From positions 1 through 64,000 of IMG/VR virus record IMGVR_UViG_3300010354_014876: 64,000 bases of DNA, one strand, 5' to 3'. Each line of letters begins with the position of its first letter. Position 1 is the first letter of the stretch. Position numbers and translations under genes: made by a program. Below, one piece after another: positions 13,623 to 57,731 of this stretch. Under the pieces are notes generated by a model. It searched no databases. It was not told the DNA's origin and saw only the letters and a list, made by a program, of their open reading frames with translations. The stretch comes from a virus.

Positions 13623-13799
13623 ATGAGTCATATTGATTTGGAATCTTATTATAGGATTAATTTTGCCTTGATGCAGTATCATAAATATTCTTTGACTGAA
13701 GTTGAAAATTGGATGCCTTGGGAAAGGGAAGTTTATGTTGGTTTGTTAAAACAGCATTTAGAAGAAGAAAAACTCAAGCAACAACAAAATGGCGGTTGA
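13623..13799 (+). CDS. gp51: gp51-like hub assembly protein (small)
   Basis: 58 aa. It has YYRINFALMQYHKYSLTEVE and the motif ENWMPWEREVYVGLLKQHLEEE. This MPWER...Y...L pattern is shared with the end of tail-assembly chaperone-like proteins such as T4 gp51, but T4 gp51 is far longer, so the call is tentative. A GTG at 13617 is an alternative start. It overlaps the next gene by 11 nt. Confidence 0.6.
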   Translation: MSHIDLESYYRINFALMQYHKYSLTEVENWMPWEREVYVGLLKQHLEEEKLKQQQNGG

Positions 13800-15810
13800 A
13801 CAAGTAAGTGTAGAGATACTTAGAATACTGGGACTTGAAGAGGCCGATGAAGTTGACATGGAATCCTACAAGGGATTTCTTCGTGAAAAATTAGTTCTCA
13901 TAAGTATGGGAAAGGCAAATCTTTCCCGTGACCAAGAAATAATAATACAAGACGAGTTCAAAAGAATAAAGTCAAAACCAAATACGGTTAAAGTTAAAAA
14001 AACTTTTGTTGATCCAAAAGCAGTTTTTAATAGAAGATCTGATAATGGAGTTAAATATCTCCCACCAGCTCCAGGAACTCTTGCAAGAAGAGTTATCCCA
14101 CAAGCAAAAGTTTCTGGAGAGAATTTTGGAATACTTGAAAATATAAATTCTTTGCTGAATAATATTTGGAAAAATTTATCTGATGATGAGAAAAGAAAGA
14201 AAAGATTAGAGAAAGATAGAAAGGCAAAATTAGATAAAGAAGAAAAGGCAGCAGAGGAATCTTCTTTAGAAAAAGTTTCAAAGGGTATTGTCAAGGCATT
14301 AGAAAAAACTTTTAAACCTGTAATTGATATATTTGATAGAATTGTAAAAGCAATACAAATTTTATTTTTAGGGTGGGTTGCAAATAGGTTACTTGATTGG
14401 ATACAGGATCCAAACAATAAGAAAACATTTGATGCCATAGTAGATTTCTTATCTAGAAATGCTGGCAAACTATTGCTATTGTTTGTGATGCTTAACAATC
14501 CTCTTGTGAAGATTGTTAGGTGGTTAGGTAAAAATATGATTAAATTCCTTGTGAGAATGATTGCGGATCTCACTAAGGGTAAAAATCTACTTAAGGGTAT
14601 TCGTGGTGGAAGAGGTGCAGCAGCTGCTTTAACTTTGGGCGCAACAGCTGCTACTATTGGTGTTTCTAGACAATTGATGAATAATGATGAAGGTGGAGGT
14701 GATGACAACAAGGTGGAGATATCAACATTTGACCCAGAAACTCCAAACTATAATGGTGGGGGTATTGTAAACACAATCAATTTAAATGGTGGTGGATTCC
14801 CAGATCTATCAAAAATAAAAACTAAAGCATCTGGAACTGAATCTTTAAGTCCAGGTCTTATTGATAAAGGACAATCTGGCATTGATAAAGTTAATGCAAA
14901 TGTAACTAAAGGTGAATTTATTTCTTCTGTTCCCGCAGTCAATACTTGGGGAGTTGATTTTTATGAAGCACTCAATAAACTTGGTGGTGGAACAAACCGA
15001 CCAACTTATTCTGGTGGAAGGATGTATGCTAAAGGTGGTGGACTAGCAATTGATAGTAGTGGAGGTGGAAGGACTAGATTATCATCACAAACATCTTTCT
15101 CTCAGTTGAGACCTCACCACGGAACTGGTGATTCTAAAAGAACTTATGGAACAACTAAGGACTATGTTCTTTACTCTAAGGATAATCCAAATAATTATGA
15201 TGTAGATGTTCCAACTCCTGTAGATGCGGTTGTAAAGTTTGCCGGTGATAAAGGAGATGGATATGGAAAATCTGTTGAGTTAGTTGATGAAAATGGTAAG
15301 ATGTTGGGATTATTTGGACATTTCAATAAATTAAAAGTTTCAACAGGTCAAAAAATAAGAGCAGGAAAATCGTTGGGTATTCAAGGATATACCGGACGTG
15401 TTTATCCACCAGGTCCAGATGGTCAGCACTTGCATATGGATGCTAATCCGTCATTTCACGAAAAATTTATTAATTATATAACTTCAGGTAAGGCTGTTTC
15501 AACATCCGATGATTCTAGTCAATTAGCTCAGAGTCCTGAAGACAAAACTACAGACACTGACTCTTTTAAGGGTATTACTTTTGCTTCAGAGGCAGATAGA
15601 AAATTAGCAACTGCGTATCTAAAATACATCACTCAACCAATGGGACGTGGTTTAGATATCAGACCAACCATTGATATGGTATCTGGAACTGGTAGTGGCA
15701 CTCCTCCAGTAGCTGCGGGTGCTGATGTTCGGTCTGGATCTGCTTCAAGAGGTGGTGTAGAACCAACTGTTGCTGCAGCACATAGACAAATAGCTTCTCC
15801 CACAAGATAA
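13789..15810 (+). CDS. Tape-measure/hub-like protein with M23 peptidase domain
   Basis: 673 aa. Residues 1-100 are helical and charged; a Lys/Glu-rich coiled region precedes a hydrophobic segment IQILFLGWVANRLLDWIQD (about 185-203) and a second (LLLLFVMLNNPLVKIVRWLG). A Gly-rich linker leads to a LysostaphinM23-type domain near 440-565: RPHHGTGD supplies His and Asp ligands and GQHLHMD the H-x-H. It would cut peptide cross-links of the host wall during DNA entry. Position is that of the gp29 tape measure. The length and M23 domain differ from T4 gp29, so gp29 equivalence is inferred. Confidence 0.75.
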   Translation: MAVEQVSVEILRILGLEEADEVDMESYKGFLREKLVLISMGKANLSRDQEIIIQDEFKRIKSKPNTVKVKKTFVDPKAVFNRRSDNGVKYLPPAPGTLARRVIPQAKVSGENFGILENINSLLNNIWKNLSDDEKRKKRLEKDRKAKLDKEEKAAEESSLEKVSKGIVKALEKTFKPVIDIFDRIVKAIQILFLGWVANRLLDWIQDPNNKKTFDAIVDFLSRNAGKLLLLFVMLNNPLVKIVRWLGKNMIKFLVRMIADLTKGKNLLKGIRGGRGAAAALTLGATAATIGVSRQLMNNDEGGGDDNKVEISTFDPETPNYNGGGIVNTINLNGGGFPDLSKIKTKASGTESLSPGLIDKGQSGIDKVNANVTKGEFISSVPAVNTWGVDFYEALNKLGGGTNRPTYSGGRMYAKGGGLAIDSSGGGRTRLSSQTSFSQLRPHHGTGDSKRTYGTTKDYVLYSKDNPNNYDVDVPTPVDAVVKFAGDKGDGYGKSVELVDENGKMLGLFGHFNKLKVSTGQKIRAGKSLGIQGYTGRVYPPGPDGQHLHMDANPSFHEKFINYITSGKAVSTSDDSSQLAQSPEDKTTDTDSFKGITFASEADRKLATAYLKYITQPMGRGLDIRPTIDMVSGTGSGTPPVAAGADVRSGSASRGGVEPTVAAAHRQIASPTR

Positions 15811-34684: not shown

Positions 34685-36922
34685 ATGGCACTACTCCTCA
34701 ATAAAAGAACTCAAACTGAGTTTGATGTATCAGCACCAGTTCTCACTTTTTCAGATACTGGTGCTGGAGCACAGCAACCATCTGATGTAATTGTAGATTA
34801 CAATGGATTTGTCACTTTAACTGCTGTTGCAAAAGCCATAAATCCATCAACCGATACCGAAGCATCTGGAACTATTTCATATCAGTGGTATAAAGATGGA
34901 ACATTAATGGTTGGTGAAACTTCATCAAATTTATATTTGAGTAATCAAGTTCTTGGTGCAGATTATTATTGTATTGCATCATTTACTCCTGCAGCAGGAA
35001 CTGCACCTGCCATTAATAGTCCTCTTACATCAGAGACTGCAACAACAACGATTAAAATTTATATTGAAATTCTTCAGCAACCTTCATATGTAAAAGTAAC
35101 TGAAGGAAAACCTGCATCTTTCTCTATTGCTGCAGTTGCGAGTAATGGGGATAATGCTTCTCTTAGATATGAGTGGTTCTTTAATAACAGTTTGATATCA
35201 ACAACCATTGGTGGTACATTATCAACAGTTAATGTAACTGCTCCTAGTCCTCCGGGGTTATATCCAATATATTGTAGAGTTAGTCAGGGTGGTGTTCCAA
35301 ATGCTACGGCAGCTCCAGCAGTAAATTCAGTAACTGTAAATTTGGAATCATCACCAAAACCTGCAGTTCAATGTTTACAATGGGATGATCAAATCAAACC
35401 TTGTGCAAAAGATGAAACTATTAGAACTGCTTCTGGACTTAAATCAGGTCCTGTAAGTGTTTGGTATGGTCCATGGGAATGGGGAACGGATAATGACACA
35501 TGCTATGTTTATTTTAAGATAAGAATTAATAGAATACACCCCAGAGCTGGTTTTGGAGATGGACAACAACCATTCACCATGTTTTTCCAGTGTAGACTTC
35601 GTGGGCAAGGTGGAGATATCTATAATGCATATAAAGTCTTAGAATGGAATGGAACAACTGGAAACACAAACGACTATAAAGATTTAGAATTTGGACCAGG
35701 TGATTTTAATGGTCAAGTAGTTAGATCATTTAAATCTGATGGATCTGTAAACTTTGAAAGAACTAACACACAAGGACAATATCTTCCTGGATGGGAAGGA
35801 ACAAGACTTAGATGGCCAAGTGGTTCTGGAAAACCAAAGTTAGATATTCTTTTACTCAGTGTTAATAGAAAGAGTGATGGAAACTCTTTACCATCTGGGG
35901 CTTTCCCTGAAGTGACGGAATCTGTAAACAACAATATACTTGAATGTGGAAGAACTTATGATCCAAATACGGAAAATCCACTGAATCAAACTGCAGCATT
36001 TAATACAAATACTCCAATCATTCAATTAACGCATCAAAAGGGAAAGAAAGTATCATATAACAGATCTGAAGTATACAATATAACACTAAAACGATATGCT
36101 GATACCACAAATAGCAATGGAGTTTATGGTGATGGGGGACCTCCATCAGGAAATGATGCTGTAAATATTGGTGTTGGGCAATGGGAATTCTTCGCACCAA
36201 GAGATATGTGGGTTGCTGTTGAAATGGCAGGAGCTGGTGGTCAAGGTGCTAGAAATTTTAGAAGCAATCAGTTATATCCAGGTGGTAAAGGTGGCGGATC
36301 AATCATAAACTTTAAAATGAAAAAAAATGTAGTGTATACATTGTGTGTAGGAAGAAGAGGATTTACTTATACAACTGGAAATCTATCTACTTTTGAAAAT
36401 GAAATTTCACCTGGAGGTGGAAGACCTGGATCGGAACAAAATGATAATGAAGGTGCAGGTGGAGGAGGAACTTTCCTATATGAAGGTGGACGACTAATTG
36501 CTGCCTGTGGAGGTGGTGGTGGAGCTGGAAGAGGTGCAAAGTATGATGATGGAAGTTATGGTGATGATGGTGTCGGTAGAATAGGTGGAAATGGTGGTGG
36601 ATGTAATCTTGGGGGAACTGCTGGTGAGGGATCATTTGGTGGAACTGGAGCAACCACTGGTGGACCAGGAAATTGTAAGGACACTAATTTGTATAGCCGT
36701 CAAACCAGAAGTCTAAATAGAGATAATTGGATGAGTGATGGTGAGTGTGGAAGTTGGATATCGGGAGAGGATCCTGGGGCATGTCCATGCATGTATTCAA
36801 ATGCCACGAATAGAAATTATAGTGATGAATCAAATCCGAAACGAATTTTAAGTGATGACAGCATTACTACATCTGTAGCAAAATCTTGTGATAGTCCAGC
36901 AACATCTAAAGTTTCTTTCTAA
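34685..36922 (+). CDS. Ig-like and glycine-rich adhesion protein
   Basis: 745 aa. Two Ig-like domains come first: ISYQWYKDGTLMVG...ADYYCIASF (about residues 60-105) and SLRYEWFFNNSLIS...YPIYCRVSQ (about 158-200). A unique beta domain follows (about 230-430). Then comes a glycine-rich domain (about 510-680; MAGAGGQGARNF, PGGKGGGSIINFKMKKNVVYTLCVG, LIAACGGGGGAGRG), like the Gly-rich lectin-type domains of tail fibres. The end is Cys/Asn/Ser-rich and does not close like such domains usually do. Likely host-surface binding on the virion. Confidence 0.7.
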   Translation: MALLLNKRTQTEFDVSAPVLTFSDTGAGAQQPSDVIVDYNGFVTLTAVAKAINPSTDTEASGTISYQWYKDGTLMVGETSSNLYLSNQVLGADYYCIASFTPAAGTAPAINSPLTSETATTTIKIYIEILQQPSYVKVTEGKPASFSIAAVASNGDNASLRYEWFFNNSLISTTIGGTLSTVNVTAPSPPGLYPIYCRVSQGGVPNATAAPAVNSVTVNLESSPKPAVQCLQWDDQIKPCAKDETIRTASGLKSGPVSVWYGPWEWGTDNDTCYVYFKIRINRIHPRAGFGDGQQPFTMFFQCRLRGQGGDIYNAYKVLEWNGTTGNTNDYKDLEFGPGDFNGQVVRSFKSDGSVNFERTNTQGQYLPGWEGTRLRWPSGSGKPKLDILLLSVNRKSDGNSLPSGAFPEVTESVNNNILECGRTYDPNTENPLNQTAAFNTNTPIIQLTHQKGKKVSYNRSEVYNITLKRYADTTNSNGVYGDGGPPSGNDAVNIGVGQWEFFAPRDMWVAVEMAGAGGQGARNFRSNQLYPGGKGGGSIINFKMKKNVVYTLCVGRRGFTYTTGNLSTFENEISPGGGRPGSEQNDNEGAGGGGTFLYEGGRLIAACGGGGGAGRGAKYDDGSYGDDGVGRIGGNGGGCNLGGTAGEGSFGGTGATTGGPGNCKDTNLYSRQTRSLNRDNWMSDGECGSWISGEDPGACPCMYSNATNRNYSDESNPKRILSDDSITTSVAKSCDSPATSKVSF

Positions 36923-36924
36923 CT

Positions 36925-39900
36925 ATGTCTGAAAAAAAGTATTACGAAATATCTGTTTTAAATGGAAATTGGGAAAATATTCATAGAGAATTATGTGAAG
37001 AAACTTGTGACTGTGATCACATTCCAAATAGATGTGTAGAATGTTATGACCTAGTTAGTCATAGTGAGAATAGAGGAAGATATCTTTTAACCGAAGAAGA
37101 AGCAGAGAACTTAAAGAGTCATCCAGATATTAAATATGTGGTATTGGATGTTGGAAAATATCCAGAGTTAAAAAAAGTAACTCCTAAACCATGTGAAGTT
37201 GCTATCAAAAGGCAATATGATACCACTGCAAAGTCTTTCCCAAATATTTGGCAGGGTAATTTTATATACGCTGGACTGGAAATAGATCCTGATTTTCCAG
37301 AGGAACCAATCAATACTGCTGGTGAACCAATTAATGCACCGTCTGGAAGTTCATCGGACAATAAAAGAACTTCATGGGGATTAAAGAGAATTGAAGAAGG
37401 TAATGATAGTTTAGTTGATTTTATAGGAGTTCAATCACCAGATTATCATTATTATGATTTTTATTATGATATAACAAATAGAGCAAATAAAATAATAAGA
37501 TTTCAATATGATGGTGAAAAGAATAAAATTGATTTTCTGGATTCTATAGGCGCTTCAAGTCAATATGATGATTTTTATTCTGGTCCTTCTGGAACTTTAA
37601 CTTATTATAAACCGAAAAAAATTCCATATAAAGACACTGATGAAAATTTAACTCAAACAAGTCCAATTTATGGAAAAGCATCTAAATATTATTCTATAAA
37701 TTTAAAATCAATTCAATATGAAAAGACCGGGCAAAATGTAGATTTGATTGTGGTTGATAATGGTGTTGCACAGTATCATCCAGAATTTTTAGATAGATTT
37801 CCAAAAATTTCTGGAGCAACCGGTGAAGAATTATTTCAAGGAAGAAGTAGAGTTAGAGACTTAATACTTGATGGACCATATTTCTTAGATCCTCAATATT
37901 TTGACAATAAACCACAACTTAAAACTACAAAGTGGGATGGCAGACCAACTTGCACTAGAGCAGGTGCTATAGGATGGTGGGCAAATAGTTCAAATAGAAG
38001 TAGTAAGTTTAGTGGAATTGGTCAAATTACTAATTTAGCATCTAAATTTACAACTCAACCAAATAGTGATCCAAGTAGTGGTTCAAAGGATGCTTATTAT
38101 GAAGAACAAGTTATTGGTGGACCCCCTGCTGCTGGACATGAAGTTCCAGATAGTTCTAAAGTAAATATGACTTCAATTATTGGGTTTGGTAGTCCTTTTT
38201 ATCACGGAACACCATGTGCCAGTGTTGCTGCCGGAGTTAATTATGGATCTGCTATTGATGCAAGAATATGGAATCTATCTATAAGATTAAGTGGAAGTAA
38301 AGGTGGAGCAATTTCTGCCGATGGATTAGAATCAGATTTGATTAAAATATTTCATAGAGCAAAAAAAGCTTGTTCTCCATCAGATAAAAGATATTCTGCA
38401 GGAAGTACAGATAATCTACTTTTATATTCTCCAACTATTAGAAGTGATAGTTGGGGAGCTATTAATGATGATTTCTATAATTATATTTCGAGTCAGGTTT
38501 CCTTATCCCATGCCCAGTGGACTGATAAAAATGTTAATGGGCCTGATGATGGATTTACATATCCTGCAGATTTTTTTCAACAAAAAGTAAATGGTGTTGT
38601 AAGTTCATTTGAAGTATCGATAAGACAAGAATCCTCAACAAAAGCAACTCAATTTTACATTTCAGGATTACATCCGTCTCTTATTGATTCAATTACTAGA
38701 TGTAAAGATTGGTATGAATATTTTAATGAAAATTTTGCAATGTGTAAATTCCCGTCTTCAGAACAAGAACTTGATGCAGCAAACGAAATGTTTTCTTATG
38801 GTGTCATAGGAGTTACTGGTGCCGGAAATGATTGGCATCAAATTTATAGTGGAGATAATGACAGATATGATAATTATATAAATTTTGGAGGAAATATTAA
38901 TTATCGAAATAGTAGAGGACAACCATCAGATTATGGTGGATTTGATGAAGGTGTTGCTAGACATAAAATGGTTATGGTTGGTGCTATTGATGCTTTGAAA
39001 ATTGTTGATCAAACTGGGAAAAATAAAGAAACTATAGCAGATTTTTCCAACAGAGGAAGTGGTATTGATGTTTTTGCTCCCGGAAATGATGTTCTTGCTG
39101 CTCAGTATGATCTCTATGATTATGATAGACCAGATTCTCCGAACGGAGTGCCATCATATTGGTCATCAAATCTAGCATCCATATATGGATCATTTGGAGA
39201 TAAATTTTTTGATGGAACAAGTTGTGCTTGTCCAATGGCAGCAGGAATAATTTGTTTATATCTGGAAGAAAATCCAAATGCAAATTGGTTAGATGTACAA
39301 AATTGGATAAGAAGTAGTGCATCCACACCAGCTAATTTTTATACTCCTTATTCCAATCCAGATGATAAAAGATATTGGGAAACATCTAAAGGATTTGCTG
39401 ATTCCCCAAACAGAGTTCTTTATAACTCATATTCTACTAAAAAATACACGTATTCCATGCAAGGAAATCAAGTTTTAGACTTTGCTCAAGCAGCACCAGA
39501 AAGTCTTTATAGTACCTATGGAATTACTAAAAAAGATGGTATCAATGCATTAACAAAGACCCCTGAAGATGAAAATGTATCTTTAACAACATTCTTAAAA
39601 GCAGTTGATGTTATTGATGCTTTCTCTCAAAGTCCAGAAGCATTTGAAAATGCTAAAGTTGTAAATGATGGATTTGGTGGAAGAGATAATGGTGGAAATG
39701 CTAGGTATGGTAGACAATTCAATCCATACAAAAATTTAAATGGACTTGCTGGTGCTGGTGGAGGTGGTGGTGGTAAATATGGTGGTGGAGGTGCTACCAT
39801 TGGTGCTGCTGGTGGAGGTGGTGCTGGATATGCCAGCGGGGTTGATGTAAAGAGAACAGAACAAGGAACAAACTCTCAAGAGGGTTATGCCAGAATATGG

Positions 39901-39963
39901 GTTACAGAGGATGATAATTTGAATAATACTGGATGGGGTAAAGTTGGAATTATAAAGAGATAA
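36925..39963 (+). CDS. Subtilisin-like serine protease with glycine-rich tail
   Basis: 1012 aa. The N-terminus (YYEISVLNGNWENI...RYLLTEEEAENLKSHPDIKYVVLD) is an I9-like inhibitor propeptide. The S8 triad is intact: Asp278 in VVDNGV, His427 in YHGTPCASVAAG and Ser766 in DGTSCACPMAAGI; GVTGAGNDW carries the oxyanion Asn. Large insertions separate the motifs. The C-terminal 100 residues switch to a glycine-rich lectin-like end (GAGGGGGGKYGGGG, NSQEGYARIWV). It follows the upstream protein by 2 nt. It may process fibres or attack host surface protein; no direct evidence. Confidence 0.8.
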   Translation: MSEKKYYEISVLNGNWENIHRELCEETCDCDHIPNRCVECYDLVSHSENRGRYLLTEEEAENLKSHPDIKYVVLDVGKYPELKKVTPKPCEVAIKRQYDTTAKSFPNIWQGNFIYAGLEIDPDFPEEPINTAGEPINAPSGSSSDNKRTSWGLKRIEEGNDSLVDFIGVQSPDYHYYDFYYDITNRANKIIRFQYDGEKNKIDFLDSIGASSQYDDFYSGPSGTLTYYKPKKIPYKDTDENLTQTSPIYGKASKYYSINLKSIQYEKTGQNVDLIVVDNGVAQYHPEFLDRFPKISGATGEELFQGRSRVRDLILDGPYFLDPQYFDNKPQLKTTKWDGRPTCTRAGAIGWWANSSNRSSKFSGIGQITNLASKFTTQPNSDPSSGSKDAYYEEQVIGGPPAAGHEVPDSSKVNMTSIIGFGSPFYHGTPCASVAAGVNYGSAIDARIWNLSIRLSGSKGGAISADGLESDLIKIFHRAKKACSPSDKRYSAGSTDNLLLYSPTIRSDSWGAINDDFYNYISSQVSLSHAQWTDKNVNGPDDGFTYPADFFQQKVNGVVSSFEVSIRQESSTKATQFYISGLHPSLIDSITRCKDWYEYFNENFAMCKFPSSEQELDAANEMFSYGVIGVTGAGNDWHQIYSGDNDRYDNYINFGGNINYRNSRGQPSDYGGFDEGVARHKMVMVGAIDALKIVDQTGKNKETIADFSNRGSGIDVFAPGNDVLAAQYDLYDYDRPDSPNGVPSYWSSNLASIYGSFGDKFFDGTSCACPMAAGIICLYLEENPNANWLDVQNWIRSSASTPANFYTPYSNPDDKRYWETSKGFADSPNRVLYNSYSTKKYTYSMQGNQVLDFAQAAPESLYSTYGITKKDGINALTKTPEDENVSLTTFLKAVDVIDAFSQSPEAFENAKVVNDGFGGRDNGGNARYGRQFNPYKNLNGLAGAGGGGGGKYGGGGATIGAAGGGGAGYASGVDVKRTEQGTNSQEGYARIWVTEDDNLNNTGWGKVGIIKR

Positions 39964-39966
39964 ATA
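39959..39966 (+). promoter_or_regulatory. Late promoter motif before the TTG-start fibre
   Basis: GATAAATA overlapping the protease stop codon, 35 nt before the fibre start. Fits NATAAATA. Confidence 0.55.
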
Positions 39967-40001
39967 ATAACAAGAAGAATACTACAAGGGGAGAGTGAAC
40001 C

Positions 40002-42215
40002 TTGGCTGCAGTTAATAAGAATTTTGTAATTAAGCATGGTGTTGAGGTAGGTGATAATTTAATTTTTGGTAATAAAGATCAACTCAAAGTTGGTATTGGC
40101 ACTACAAATCCAGCATTTACTCTTGATGTTCGTGGTGGTATTGGTGCAACTTCTGTTTCTGTAGGACAGACAATTACAGCAAACAGTGGAGTAGTAACTA
40201 ATTTTACAGCAAAGAATCTTACAATAAATGGTGGAACTCTTACTGCTGGTGGATCTGCTGGAACAAGTGGACAATATTTAAAATCGACAGCAACTGGTGT
40301 TGAGTGGGCAACATTTCCAGCTGCTAGAGCATCAACTTTTCACACAGCAACTGTATCTCAAACTACATTTACTTCAACCTATTACGTTGGTTTACTTGAT
40401 GTTTATGTAAATGGTGTTAAGTTAGCAAATACTGAATTTACAGCAACTGATGGGACAAATGTAATATTATCTAATTCGTGTTTTGGTGGAGAAATTGTAG
40501 AAATAGTTGCATATGGAATAGTTGCTACTGGTGTCGGTGGCACTGGAATTCAAGGTTTGACAGTTAAAAATGGAGGCACAATTGTAGGCAACACTGCTGG
40601 TGTAACTTCAATTGACTTTGTTGGTGCCGCATTCTCTGTTTTTGGTCCTGGTGCTGGTCTAACAATTACTCTTAACCAAGAGGCAAATTGGACAACAACT
40701 TTTAATGGACTTTATAATGTTGGAAATGTTGGTGTCGGAACAACTTCAACAGAATATCCATTAACAGTAGGAACACCTGGAGTTGGTGGAACATCACTAT
40801 TTGTAAATGGTGATGCAAGAATTACTGGAATTTTAACAATTGGAACTGCTTCGGTCACAATTGATGGTTCATCCAATACGATTACTGTTGGATCTGGAGT
40901 AACTATCAATGGATCTACTGGAGAGATTGTTGCTTCCAGTCTCACTCTACCCACAGGTGCTCTTGGAGATTATGCAAATGTTGCTGGAATTTCAACAACT
41001 GCTCAAGGACTCACTGGAACTCCAAACATTACTGTTGGAGTTGTAACGGCTTCATCAGTAACTGTTGGTTCTGCAGTTACAATTAATTCTTCTGGAATTA
41101 ATGTCTCAGGTACAACAACTGCAACTTCATTTGTAAAAAGAGGTGGAACTTCTTCACAATTCTTAAAAGCTGATGGATCTGTAGATTCAAGCACTTATCT
41201 AACTTCATATACAGAAACAGACACTATAGACTCTGTTCTTGGTAGAGGAAGTTCTACAACTAAAGGAATGAGTGTTGGAGTTCTGACTGCTACTTCTTTA
41301 AGTTTTAGTGGTACTCTAAATTCTTCCGGTGCTAATATTTCTGGAATCACAACTCTTTCTAGATTAAATGTTGGAACTGGTGGAACAATTGTTACAACAA
41401 CTTCTGATGGTCTGATCGGAATTGGAACAACAAATCCATCAGCAACTTTAATGATTGTTGGTAGTACCGGTGCAACTAAAGATGCAAGAATTGTTTTAAG
41501 AGATACATCTTCGGATGCACCAGAAGGTACAGTAACTTCTGTAGACTTCCAAGATAGCACTGGAACTCTTAAAGGTTATGTTGGTGATAGATACTCTGCT
41601 AAAGATACGATTCAATTAAGTTCTGCAGGTAATTTGTCATTAGAATCCAACAATTTAGAAAGAGTTACAATTCTAACCACTGGTGAGGTTGGAATTGGTA
41701 CAACAATTCCAAAATCGGGATCAAGTTTGCAAGTTGGAACTGGTGTGACAATTTATGGAAACTTGGGTATCGTAAGTGCTACTGCATATTATGGTGATGG
41801 GAGTAATCTTTCGGGAGTTAGTGGACTCTCTGGAAGAACTACAGCAACTGTAACAACTGCATCTATTGGTGCTGGAGCAACTGCTGATGTTACAATCACT
41901 GGATATAAAACATATTCACTCTTAAAAATTGGTGTTACACATGCTGCTTGGGTTGTTCTTTATACTGATACTGATAGTAGAGTGAGTGATGCTGCAGGTG
42001 CTTCTGGTGGTAGAGATCAATACACTGATCCAGTACCAGGATCTGGAGTTATTGCAGAAGTGATTACTGGTGCAGGCGGAACAGTTCTTATGACACCAGC
42101 AGTTATCGGTTGGAATAATGATGGAACTACAAACGTTTATGGTAGAGTAGTAAATCTAACAGGATCTTCGGTTGCAATCGGAGTTACTCTCACCATGGTT
42201 AAGATGGAAAGTTAA
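40002..42215 (+). CDS. Tail fibre protein (long), TTG start
   Basis: 737 aa beginning (TTG) MAAVNKNFVIKHGVEVGDNL. No upstream in-frame ATG is available; a strong GGGGAG ribosome site lies 8 nt before TTG. The protein is made of Gly/Thr/Ser/Ile beta modules: VGIGTTNPAFTLDVRGGIGATS, LDVYVNGVKLANTEFTAT, several VTATSV/ATSF units, VSATAYYGDGSNLSGVSG near residue 600. It ends in a beta-rich domain (TYSLLKIGVTHAAWVVLYTD...GSSVAIGVTLTMVKMES). Typical of trimeric fibres that recognise the host. It is followed by protease 2 with one base between. Confidence 0.75.
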   Translation: MAAVNKNFVIKHGVEVGDNLIFGNKDQLKVGIGTTNPAFTLDVRGGIGATSVSVGQTITANSGVVTNFTAKNLTINGGTLTAGGSAGTSGQYLKSTATGVEWATFPAARASTFHTATVSQTTFTSTYYVGLLDVYVNGVKLANTEFTATDGTNVILSNSCFGGEIVEIVAYGIVATGVGGTGIQGLTVKNGGTIVGNTAGVTSIDFVGAAFSVFGPGAGLTITLNQEANWTTTFNGLYNVGNVGVGTTSTEYPLTVGTPGVGGTSLFVNGDARITGILTIGTASVTIDGSSNTITVGSGVTINGSTGEIVASSLTLPTGALGDYANVAGISTTAQGLTGTPNITVGVVTASSVTVGSAVTINSSGINVSGTTTATSFVKRGGTSSQFLKADGSVDSSTYLTSYTETDTIDSVLGRGSSTTKGMSVGVLTATSLSFSGTLNSSGANISGITTLSRLNVGTGGTIVTTTSDGLIGIGTTNPSATLMIVGSTGATKDARIVLRDTSSDAPEGTVTSVDFQDSTGTLKGYVGDRYSAKDTIQLSSAGNLSLESNNLERVTILTTGEVGIGTTIPKSGSSLQVGTGVTIYGNLGIVSATAYYGDGSNLSGVSGLSGRTTATVTTASIGAGATADVTITGYKTYSLLKIGVTHAAWVVLYTDTDSRVSDAAGASGGRDQYTDPVPGSGVIAEVITGAGGTVLMTPAVIGWNNDGTTNVYGRVVNLTGSSVAIGVTLTMVKMES

Positions 42216-42216
42216 G

Positions 42217-43959
42217 ATGAGAAACTACGTAGTTACTCTCAAAAATAAAGAAGATCTTGATGGTTTCTATAAAGACATGGAAACCATCAATAGAAAAGGT
42301 CCTGATAAAGTAATTCCAGGAAGAAAAATTGAATGTGCAGTAAGAAGACCGATCAGTAGAAATACTGTTTATCTTTTAACAGATGAAGAAGCAGAAGAAA
42401 TTAGAAAGGACCAAAGAGTTTTAGCAGTAGAACTTACATTTAAAGAGCAGGGGATTAAAATAATTCCTCACTGGCAACAAACTGCAGATTTTGATAAGGA
42501 TCCAACTGGACCTAATGATAAGAACTGGGCACTTTTAAGATGTTGGAATGGTGGACCTATTTCTGGTTGGGGACTAGGTGGATCTTTTCTTGATTATAAT
42601 ACAACAATTGACACTACAAGCAGTGGGAAAAATGTTGATGTTGTAATTACTGATGTTCACATTCAATTTGATCACCCAGAATTTGCACTAAATCCAGACG
42701 GAACTGGTGGAAGTAGAGCAGTTCAGTTAGATTGGCTTCAGTACAGTACAGAAGCTGGATATGTTAGTAATGGTTCTTATGATTATGGAAGTTTTGAAGC
42801 AAATCATGGAACTCATGTTGCGGGAAGTGTAGCTGGAAATACTCAAGGATGGGCAAGATCAGCAAATATCTATAGTATGCATTATGCATATCCAAATACA
42901 ATTCCTTCTGGATCTCCTGCTCCTGGTGAGGTTGTAGTTGGTGCTTTGGGTTGGACTGAAGTTCTATTTGATTATATTATTGCGTGGCACAATAACAAGG
43001 AAATAAATCCAAATACTGGAAGAAGAAATCCTACAATTGTAAATGCAAGTTGGGGAGCAGCTGAAGTTGATTCTGATGGAGGACTGATTGCTACATCACA
43101 ATTAACACAATGGGTTTACAGGGGAACAACTACGAATGTTTCTAATCCATCATCATCCTCAGTTAATGCAGTAGGATTAATTACTGTTGATATAAATGAA
43201 AATGCAGATCCTAATGGAACATACTTACCTTACCTTCCAATTCGTTCTGCTGCTCTTGATGCTGATGTTCAAGATGCAATTGATGCTGGAATTGTGATCG
43301 TAAGTGCTGCTGGAAATACTTATTGGTATCATGATGTTCCAACAGGAAATAACTACAATAACACATTTACTTATACCAGAGCTAATGGATCCTCAAGAAC
43401 GGTTTACTATCATAGAGGTGCTTCTCCAGCAGCAGCAACTGGAGTAATTAGTGTTGGTGCTGTAGACATATATGTAGATGAACGAAAAGTAGACTTTAGT
43501 GATTTTGGACCAAGAATAGATGTTTTTGCACCTGGTAGATATATTATGTCTTCTGTTTGGGCAGCTGAATCTGGATATACTTTAATCAATGATCCTCGTG
43601 ATAGTAATTATAAACTTGCGAGATCATCTGGAACAAGTTTTGCTTCACCTCAAGTTGCAGGAGTTCTTGCTTGCCTAGCAGAACAGGAACCAAGAATGAA
43701 TCAACAAGATGCTAGAGATTACATAAATTATGTCGCAACCCAAGATCAAATAGGAAATACTGGAGATGGAAACCCTCCAGCAGTAAATTTTGATTGGACC
43801 GATCATTTGGATCTATTAGATTCTCCAAACTTATATCTTTATTATAATTATGAAAGGCCTATTGGTGGAATGGCATCACCAAAAATGAATTATAAGAGAA
43901 GACCATCAAGTGGTGCTGTTTATCCTCGTTACAACCGAACTAAAACTTATCTCAACTAA
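42217..43959 (+). CDS. Subtilisin-like serine protease, second copy
   Basis: 580 aa. The N-terminus (MRNYVVTLKNKEDLDGFYKDM...VYLLTDEEAEEIRKDQRVLAVEL) is an I9-like propeptide. The S8 triad is complete: Asp146 in VVITDVHI, His197 in NHGTHVAG, Ser474 in SGTSFASPQVAG; VSAAGNTY gives the oxyanion Asn. It is closer to standard subtilases than the larger protease at 36925. The start is the ATG at 42217, one base after the fibre stop; the frame is open a little further upstream. A fibre-processing or host-surface role is inferred. Confidence 0.85.
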   Translation: MRNYVVTLKNKEDLDGFYKDMETINRKGPDKVIPGRKIECAVRRPISRNTVYLLTDEEAEEIRKDQRVLAVELTFKEQGIKIIPHWQQTADFDKDPTGPNDKNWALLRCWNGGPISGWGLGGSFLDYNTTIDTTSSGKNVDVVITDVHIQFDHPEFALNPDGTGGSRAVQLDWLQYSTEAGYVSNGSYDYGSFEANHGTHVAGSVAGNTQGWARSANIYSMHYAYPNTIPSGSPAPGEVVVGALGWTEVLFDYIIAWHNNKEINPNTGRRNPTIVNASWGAAEVDSDGGLIATSQLTQWVYRGTTTNVSNPSSSSVNAVGLITVDINENADPNGTYLPYLPIRSAALDADVQDAIDAGIVIVSAAGNTYWYHDVPTGNNYNNTFTYTRANGSSRTVYYHRGASPAAATGVISVGAVDIYVDERKVDFSDFGPRIDVFAPGRYIMSSVWAAESGYTLINDPRDSNYKLARSSGTSFASPQVAGVLACLAEQEPRMNQQDARDYINYVATQDQIGNTGDGNPPAVNFDWTDHLDLLDSPNLYLYYNYERPIGGMASPKMNYKRRPSSGAVYPRYNRTKTYLN

Positions 43960-56195: not shown

Positions 56196-57731
56196 ATGAA
56201 AATACTATCAATACCAATTTTAGCCCACGATACTTCATGTTGTATAATTGAAAATGGTAAAATTTCTTCCTATATTATGGAGGAAAGATTTTCAAGAGTA
56301 AAGCATGATTTAAGGTTGGATTGTATCTTAAAAAAGTTGGTGGAACAAAATGAGACTGAATTTGATGATTTAATTATTTCGAAATCATTTTTAGATGAAT
56401 ATACTTATTCATTAAATAAATTAACAAAAAAATTAGAAAAATTTAAATACAATAATTTCATAATAGATGATAAAAATCATCATCTTTATCATGCATATTC
56501 TGGATTTTTTAATTCTAATTTTGAAGAAGCAATTTGTTTTTCTGTAGACGCTACTGGGGCAGTTGTTGAAGGTGAGTTTGTGGAAGTAGAAACGGTATAT
56601 ATTTTTAAAAGGGGACAAAAAGAAAAAATAATTTATAAAAAAAGAAGAGAAAGTTTATATGATCAATCAGAAGAAAAAATAAGTGTTGGTGAAAAATATC
56701 TATCTAAATGTAAAAAATTTGGATATAATCCAATTGATGGAGCTGGAAAACTAATGGGGTTGGGCCAATACAAAAATAATAAAAATGAATTGCAATATCC
56801 ACATAATACAAAAGAGTGGAAAGAAAGAGTTGATGAAGCATATAATCTTCAACAAGAAACACAAACTTATATCTTAAATCTTATTCAAAAATATACAGAA
56901 GAAACTGGAATTAAAAATGTAGTCATCTCAGGTGGTTATGGTTTAAATTGTGTTGCAAACTACCATTATCTTAGGAATCTAAAAGACATTAGTTTTTATA
57001 TTGATCCAATTTGTTTTGATGCTGGCATTAGTATTGGTGCTGCATACTATCATTACATTCAATCTACTCAATCTACTCAAAATAATCAATTAATTCAACC
57101 ACTCCAGAATGCATATATTGGATATCAAGAGGAATCTTATAACTTAAGTGGTCTTGAAACTCAAAGAGTTTCTTACAATGACATAGTTGACTTACTTCTT
57201 CAAAAAAATATTGTTGCATTATTTCAAGGTAAGTCTGAGGCAGGCCAGAGAGCACTTGGAAATCGTTCATTACTTTTTGATCCAAGAATTTCCAATGGTA
57301 AAGATATTGTGAATCAAATTAAAAAAAGAGAAAACTTTAGACCTTTTGCCGGAACCATCCTATTAGAAGAAGCATCAAAATGGTTTAACATGTTTTCATT
57401 AGAAGAAAGTCCTTATATGCAATATGCAATGGATGCTTATGAAAATGCTATAGAGCAAGTTCCTGCAATTATTCACGCAGATAATACTTGCAGAATACAA
57501 ACTGTAACTCAAGAACAAAATAAACACTTCTACAATCTCATTTCTTGTTTTTTTGAACAAACTGGGGTTCCTATTCTGTTAAACACAAGTTTCAATCTTG
57601 GTGGAGAACCTTTAGTTGAAACTTTTGAACATGCACTACATACTCTTAGAAATAGTATGATAGAATACTTGTACTTACCGGAAATAGAGACTTTAATCAC
57701 AATTAAAAATAGAAAATTACAATATCAATGA
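56196..57731 (+). CDS. Carbamoyltransferase (NodU/CmcH family)
   Basis: 511 aa with both halves. The N-terminal ATPase-like half has ILAHDTSCCIIENGK, YIMEERFSRVKHD, IDDKNHHLYHAYSGF, CFSVDATGAV and GAGKLMGLGQY. The C-terminal half has FQGKSEAGQRALGNRSLLFDPR, FRPFAGTILLEE and VPILLNTSFNLGGEPLV. It transfers carbamoyl from carbamoyl phosphate to a hydroxyl, as on Nod factors and sugars. Acceptor unknown. It overlaps the methyltransferase by 4 nt. Confidence 0.88.
   Translation: MKILSIPILAHDTSCCIIENGKISSYIMEERFSRVKHDLRLDCILKKLVEQNETEFDDLIISKSFLDEYTYSLNKLTKKLEKFKYNNFIIDDKNHHLYHAYSGFFNSNFEEAICFSVDATGAVVEGEFVEVETVYIFKRGQKEKIIYKKRRESLYDQSEEKISVGEKYLSKCKKFGYNPIDGAGKLMGLGQYKNNKNELQYPHNTKEWKERVDEAYNLQQETQTYILNLIQKYTEETGIKNVVISGGYGLNCVANYHYLRNLKDISFYIDPICFDAGISIGAAYYHYIQSTQSTQNNQLIQPLQNAYIGYQEESYNLSGLETQRVSYNDIVDLLLQKNIVALFQGKSEAGQRALGNRSLLFDPRISNGKDIVNQIKKRENFRPFAGTILLEEASKWFNMFSLEESPYMQYAMDAYENAIEQVPAIIHADNTCRIQTVTQEQNKHFYNLISCFFEQTGVPILLNTSFNLGGEPLVETFEHALHTLRNSMIEYLYLPEIETLITIKNRKLQYQ

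Follow-up and report, generated by a model that had tools for sequence, protein, structure and literature searches.

The window analysed in this work comprises 64,000 bases of the 64,543-base IMG/VR virus record IMGVR_UViG_3300010354_014876, and it carries T4-like tail genes together with members of cyanophage fibre families. Between the gene for a tail fibre of 1952 amino acids (aa) and that for a fibre of 455 aa lie two pairs of genes (Table 1), in each of which a fibre or adhesin gene is followed by the gene for a subtilisin-type serine protease (subtilase), referred to here as W1 and W2. The stop codon of the upstream fibre gene is separated from the protease gene by 2 nucleotides (nt) for W1 and by 1 nt for W2, in agreement with the earlier note on this DNA, which had placed each protease 1-2 nt behind a fibre or adhesin gene. 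The start of W2 is the ATG at 42217; the TTG at 42172 given in the list of open reading frames (ORFs) falls within the fibre gene. This fibre gene (40002-42215) itself has a TTG start, and its first 100 nt hold no further in-frame ATG, GTG or TTG. Both W1 and W2 match Pfam Peptidase_S8 above the cut-off (E 1.6e-15 and 1.6e-24, respectively) as well as phrog_9158 (E 3.3e-43 and 4.2e-102), which bears out the claim that two proteases of this type are present among the fibre genes. The Asp/His/Ser triads are complete, with the serines at the residues that had been named, and the oxyanion Asn is also present, the tetrads being D278/H427/N635/S766 in W1 and D146/H197/N367/S474 in W2.

The subtilases related to these proteins fall into two clades, viz. 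type A, which includes W2, and type B, to which W1 belongs by sequence. In alignments, each of the 129 distinct type-A sequences has the D/H/N/S tetrad, and so does every one of the 106 type-B sequences that cover the serine column (4 others end at contig ends), and this invariance rules out that the residues are retained by chance. A predicted model of W2 (mean predicted local distance difference test score (pLDDT) of 83) resembles enzymes of the proteinase K family, with Z 35-37 and a root-mean-square deviation (rmsd) of 2.0-2.2 over ~275 residues (5wsl: Z 37.0, rmsd 2.1, 276 aligned residues; 2prk: Z 35.1). As the mature forms of these enzymes align from residue 86 of W2, residues 1-85 are assigned to a propeptide, and a beta-alpha-beta-beta-alpha-beta order is predicted for about residues 1-73. 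The description of both N-termini as I9-like in the earlier note may fit this predicted order, the mature start at residue 86 and the alignment of the W1 N-terminus to that of W2 in a profile comparison. However, the Pfam I9 model itself matched neither W1 nor W2 at E <= 1, and the W2 propeptide alone found no match among PDB sequences. A role of this segment in keeping the enzyme latent, as had been suggested, is compatible with general subtilase biology and with the predicted fold. Both window enzymes are complete proteinase-K-like subtilases with a propeptide-like N-terminus. With the proteinase K family (S8A), W2 shares the tetrad, the fold and a propeptide preceding a mature start near residue 86, whereas the window enzymes differ from that family in being encoded in a phage fibre operon and in the clade-specific C-terminal tails described below. 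If the protease role had been lost and the protein now served as an adhesin scaffold, then the apparent replacement of the catalytic Asp by Glu in a divergent relative from S-CAM1 could be understood in this manner. However, the four catalytic residues are invariant across the complete sequences of both clades, and such a loss is very improbable.

The two clades differ in the fibres that they follow. In isolates, only a few bases separate the start of the subtilase from the stop codon of a fibre gene, and all of these fibres, except that of S-TIM54, have at their end either of two domains with no relationship to each other, viz. a type-A domain of ~118 aa for the clade of W2 and a type-B domain of ~106 aa for the clade of W1. 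Further loci were fetched from IMG/VR by subtilase sequence, the best-scoring 80 per scan with near-duplicates included, and the counts from them therefore describe the rule of pairing and not independent events. In these loci, the type-A domain lies directly upstream of 75/75 assessable type-A subtilases (2 more are cut at the contig start), and the type-B domain directly upstream of 69 of the 78 assessable type-B subtilases (2 more are cut), with a different upstream gene in 6 of the remaining cases and no adjacent ORF in 3. Crossed pairs (A with B, or B with A) numbered 0. The gap between fibre and subtilase has its mode at +1 nt, the fibre domain stops 0-4 aa before the fibre C-terminus, and the fibre portion preceding it differs widely in length (~100 to ~1,370 aa), whereas the domain and the enzyme are kept. 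The W2 pair is of the type-A kind, its fibre ending in the type-A domain. This domain is conserved in 100 relatives and is modelled by AlphaFold2 (AF2) as a beta-sandwich (pLDDT 93.8). It matched no PDB sequence, Foldseek found no structural relative at E <= 0.001, and the best VIA-align match had Z 6.7 among many ties; hence, it can only be described as a generic beta-sandwich or jelly-roll. A common origin of the two fibre-end domains, type A and type B, was also considered and rejected, as profile comparison found no relationship between them.

Table 1. Positions of the two fibre-subtilase pairs and of their parts in the window
Feature	Position	Strand	Basis
Fibre/adhesin gene preceding W1, 745 aa, with an Ig-like part at the N-terminus and the first part of a glycine-rich domain	34685..36922	+	weak Ig_3 match, phrog_24848
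W1, type-B-clade subtilase, 1012 aa	36925..39963	+	Pfam S8 E 1.6e-15; phrog_9158; D278/H427/N635/S766
W1 propeptide-like N-terminal segment, residues ~5-85	36937..37179	+	profile-profile alignment to W2 N-terminus
W1 catalytic span, Asp278 to Ser766 codons	37756..39222	+	catalytic residue assignment
First part of glycine-rich domain in W1's upstream fibre, residues ~499-660	36179..36664	+	PF12810 positions ~12-151 in concatenation tests; alone no match
Glycine-rich tail at the C-terminus of W1, candidate for the second part of the domain begun upstream	39733..39960	+	PF12810 match when joined
Fibre gene preceding W2, 737 aa, TTG start	40002..42215	+	matches to cyanophage fibre families
Candidate docking domain of W2's fibre, the type-A domain in its last 124 aa	41841..42212	+	conservation in 100 relatives; AF2 model
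W2, type-A subtilase, 580 aa	42217..43959	+	Pfam S8 E 1.6e-24; proteinase K family model match
W2 propeptide, residues 1-85	42217..42471	+	predicted secondary structure; mature enzymes align from residue 86
W2 catalytic span, Asp146 to Ser474 codons	42652..43638	+	residues invariant in 129/129
W2 C-terminal tail, clade motif G..YPR (RRPSSGAVYPR...)	43897..43956	+	motif count among type-A subtilases

The same fibre ends are also found beside partners which are not proteases. In S-BM3, Sf-CH1b, S-H9-1, S-SCSM1, AG-345-F15 and AG-345-P14, a type-A domain is followed, 0-4 nt on, by a protein of an unrelated family ('CARTT' or similar), and the type-A domain is present in siphovirus structural genes with no neighbouring subtilase. 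Behind type-B fibres, a LamG-like protein is encoded in one IMG/VR locus (L337) and a propeller-like protein in another (L301), these two labels being based on reading of the sequences and not on a profile match. The presence of these fibre ends beside non-protease partners favours the interpretation that they are sockets rather than substrates of a protease. The members of the 'CARTT' family (L025, L026, L032, L011, L015 and L021, behind second type-A fibres) are 600-930 aa long and end in '..PCPYYLPDDF..GIAFCARTT', and some of them have a cupredoxin-like domain in common with subtilases.

The retention of the fibre domains beside other partners also bears on the first of two roles which the earlier note had proposed, viz. 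that the enzyme is a maturation protease which cuts the upstream fibre at assembly (e.g. beside or inside its conserved C-terminal domain) and has no working part in the virion. The strict pairing with one fibre domain, together with a propeptide that would suit delayed activation, is what a dedicated enzyme-substrate pair should look like, and an ending resembling the S74 intramolecular chaperone is found in some relatives, from which it follows that fibre processing probably occurs in the group. However, besides the non-protease partners, a single enzyme family is served here by two unrelated fibre domains, some of the partners carry lectin and Ig modules, and the subtilase of S-SCSM1 is tagged as a virion protein along with its fibre. 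Fibre maturation is therefore considered unlikely as the role of these enzymes, and a virion enzyme acting on a host surface protein, the other role proposed, is favoured by the S-SCSM1 tags, the binding modules and the non-protease partners. The chaperone-like endings were seen in three type-B-clade enzymes (L240, L249 and L252), in which both the C-terminus of the enzyme and that of the upstream fibre are of this kind ('VKYDKLIPLLIESIKDLK').

The subtilases of the two clades also differ in their own C-termini. The C-terminus of type-B enzymes is a short peptide of the kind SISGVNISGISFKQS, and when a position matrix trained on 50 type-B subtilase tails only was applied to 832 other C-termini, the LamG-like partner of locus L337 ranked first with 16.9 bits, the runner-up having 8.9. 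A looser pattern, chosen after the tails had been inspected, fits 67/74 type-B subtilases, 0/101 of type A and 34/812 other ORFs, and both of the non-protease type-B partners are among these 34. The tail is missing in W1 as well as in L240, L249 and L252, none of which has a type-B domain upstream. For type A, the ending G..[YFW]PR after residue 480 is present in 80/101 subtilases and in 0/74 of type B, and 4/812 control ORFs have the motif within their last 120 aa. It is also present in the divergent S-CAM1 enzyme (L027:6362-8617), which lies behind a type-A fibre, has Glu apparently at the Asp position (VDIVTLESG) and a cupredoxin-like stretch preceding the His, and is annotated merely as hypothetical or tail fibre.

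Proteinase K and similar members of the family are secreted extracellular enzymes, and if the phage proteins resembled them in this respect also, then they would be soluble proteases, secreted or acting at the stage of lysis, which merely lie in the fibre operon and act on host debris or in release. However, the pairing by clade, the almost abutting genes, the tail common to a non-protease partner and the fusion, in S-TIM54, of a subtilase into a 'virion structural protein' of 2140 aa all speak against a free enzyme, which is considered quite improbable. In the record of S-SCSM1, some genes bear the mark '(virion protein)' and others do not. The subtilase SSCSM1_228 and its fibre SSCSM1_227 are both marked in this manner, as are a type-A fibre and its 'CARTT' partner (231 and 232), and ORF213 and ORF214, which are similarly marked, are named as detected by mass spectrometry (PMC9602691). 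The authors of that work warn that carried-over proteins are possible in cyanophage virion preparations (PMC9602691), a point which would suit a free enzyme. Further, the subtilase chains of relatives carry additional LamG lectin, cupredoxin-like, Ig and full glycine-rich domains, and such binding modules are expected for an enzyme which acts at a surface. In the S-TIM54 protein (L006:11998-18420), the propeptide of the subtilases is present, the S8 domain is preceded by an alpha/beta-hydrolase-like stretch, and Ig domains also occur; this one polypeptide may possibly combine two enzymes.

Based on these observations, our interpretation, which we hold to be modestly favoured, is that the subtilase is an exchangeable protease docked on the fibre tip, where it would likely cut a host surface protein; the docking, the position at the tip, the activity and the substrate are what we infer. 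The enzymatic partner of each fibre would be the subtilase encoded immediately downstream, and the two would be co-produced from their adjacent, almost abutting genes. The N-terminal propeptide would act as chaperone and inhibitor in folding, and self-cleavage near residue 85/86 (in W2) would free the enzyme, which the conserved C-terminal domain of the fibre would then hold at the distal fibre end, similar to gp38 on gp37 in T-even phages. During adsorption, the enzyme would cleave cyanobacterial surface proteins, in the way that tailspike depolymerases act on polysaccharides. The fibre end would thus be a socket, which is occupied by a subtilase in some phages and by a lectin or other protein elsewhere. 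In T-even phages (e.g. PP01 gp38, PMC12892980), the fibre gene directly precedes the gene for the tip protein, as the fibre genes of the window precede those of the proposed tip proteins, and the presence of a glycine-rich module in W1 is a further resemblance. However, the proposed tip protein of the window is a protease, and the gp38 family was not found among the Pfam or PHROG matches of the window proteins. Known path-clearing virion enzymes mostly target sugars or peptidoglycan. The tailspike polysaccharide depolymerases (e.g. LKA1gp49, PMC5701251) share the proposed role of a virion enzyme that clears or cuts the host surface, whereas the likely target of the window enzymes is a protein and not a sugar, and they are separate polypeptides and not parts of a spike.

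Several observations weigh against the docking of an exchangeable virion protease. The evidence that the S-SCSM1 subtilase is present in the virion consists of the tags of a record tied to a published proteome, and the looser tail pattern, besides its choice after inspection, is absent in 7/74 type-B subtilases and in that of S-SCSM1. The 'CARTT' family, a partner of the type-A socket, lacks the YPR motif. In six of the eight cases classed as 'other', a type-B fibre has no close partner, the next gene being 64-65 nt away. When the distances of the subtilases were compared with those of the fibre domains in a mirror-tree test, the correlations (r 0.39 for A and 0.41 for B) were not clearly above those of other linked parts; they say nothing on contact and were rejected as evidence for it. 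Lastly, W1 itself fits neither socket nor tail, as its upstream fibre carries neither the type-A nor the type-B end domain and the enzyme lacks the tail. In the six partnerless type-B fibres (L326, L327, L328, L330, L333 and L318), the next gene is 65 nt off in five and long (797-970 aa), that of L326 beginning fibre-like; in L318 it is 64 nt off and cut.

With regard to W1, the joint lack of the type-B end domain and of the tail is expected if these two serve docking, and W1 may have lost, or never had, both of them. One possible manner in which it could be joined to its fibre is through a glycine-rich domain common to both chains. When the glycine-rich piece of the upstream fibre and that of the W1 tail are joined in order, they match PF12810, the profile of the ALK/LTK-type glycine-rich domain, with a score of 33.3 bits against a cut-off of 24.5, in a single stretch covering profile positions 12-214. 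The pieces in reversed order gave 27.5 bits in two stretches and shuffled pieces 0-10.6 bits, while either piece alone had no Pfam match and BLAST with the pieces found no match. A single glycine-rich domain divided between W1 and its fibre chain is a candidate, for which the plain alternative is mosaic recombination in glycine-rich DNA. If the genetic arrangements above are taken together, they could represent a general plug-in system of marine cyanophage fibres, in which proteases, lectins and other proteins would be exchangeable on two unrelated sockets that accept different classes of partners. Type-B exchange would depend on the short tail, common to partners that are otherwise unrelated, and the W1 pair would provide a further mode of joining by a two-chain glycine-rich domain; this wider proposal is tentative and, in our view, rather doubtful.

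In translated searches, W1 retrieved 20 phage records and W2 retrieved 38, and the source was in every case a cyanophage or marine virus. Every matched record has a single place for a subtilase, and two per record, as in the window, was not met among them. W1 as a single query retrieved no relatives from IMG/VR. The statement that such proteases are unusual in phage tails is correct for phages in general, as about 50 of 50,697 phage records bear a subtilase, but it does not apply to cyanomyoviruses, for which IMG/VR contains hundreds of such loci. Cyanophage subtilases are already known by annotation, viz. as phrog_9158, T4-GC 292 of P-SSM2 and S-SSM7, the 'subtilisin-like serine protease' of S-H38 and S-WAM2, and the 'peptidase' of S-CREM1 (47.5% identity to W2), and an S8 peptidase was listed, with no role assigned, by Sullivan 2010 (PMC3037559). 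These proteins are of the same family as those of the window and likewise lie directly behind a fibre gene, whereas the window differs in having two enzymes on a 64.5-kb record and in the W1 pair, where the fibre lacks an end domain and the enzyme has a glycine-rich tail. No paper describing phage subtilases as fibre partners was found in the openly (Creative Commons, CC-) licensed literature searched, nor was any account of the pairing rule, of partner exchange or of the shared tail. If the proposed role is correct, then marine cyanophages cut host surface proteins at adsorption, which bears on the host range of these abundant phages and on the identity of their receptors. By the pairing rule, hundreds of fibre ends and of genes annotated as 'hypothetical' can also be assigned a function, and the rule defines a domain-tail pair.

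Elsewhere in the window, a gene of the structural region (13789-15810) has a metallo-endopeptidase-like part (phrog_7767), and genes for a Nol-like carbamoyltransferase and a nucleotide-sugar epimerase are present at 56196-57731 and 263-1264, respectively.

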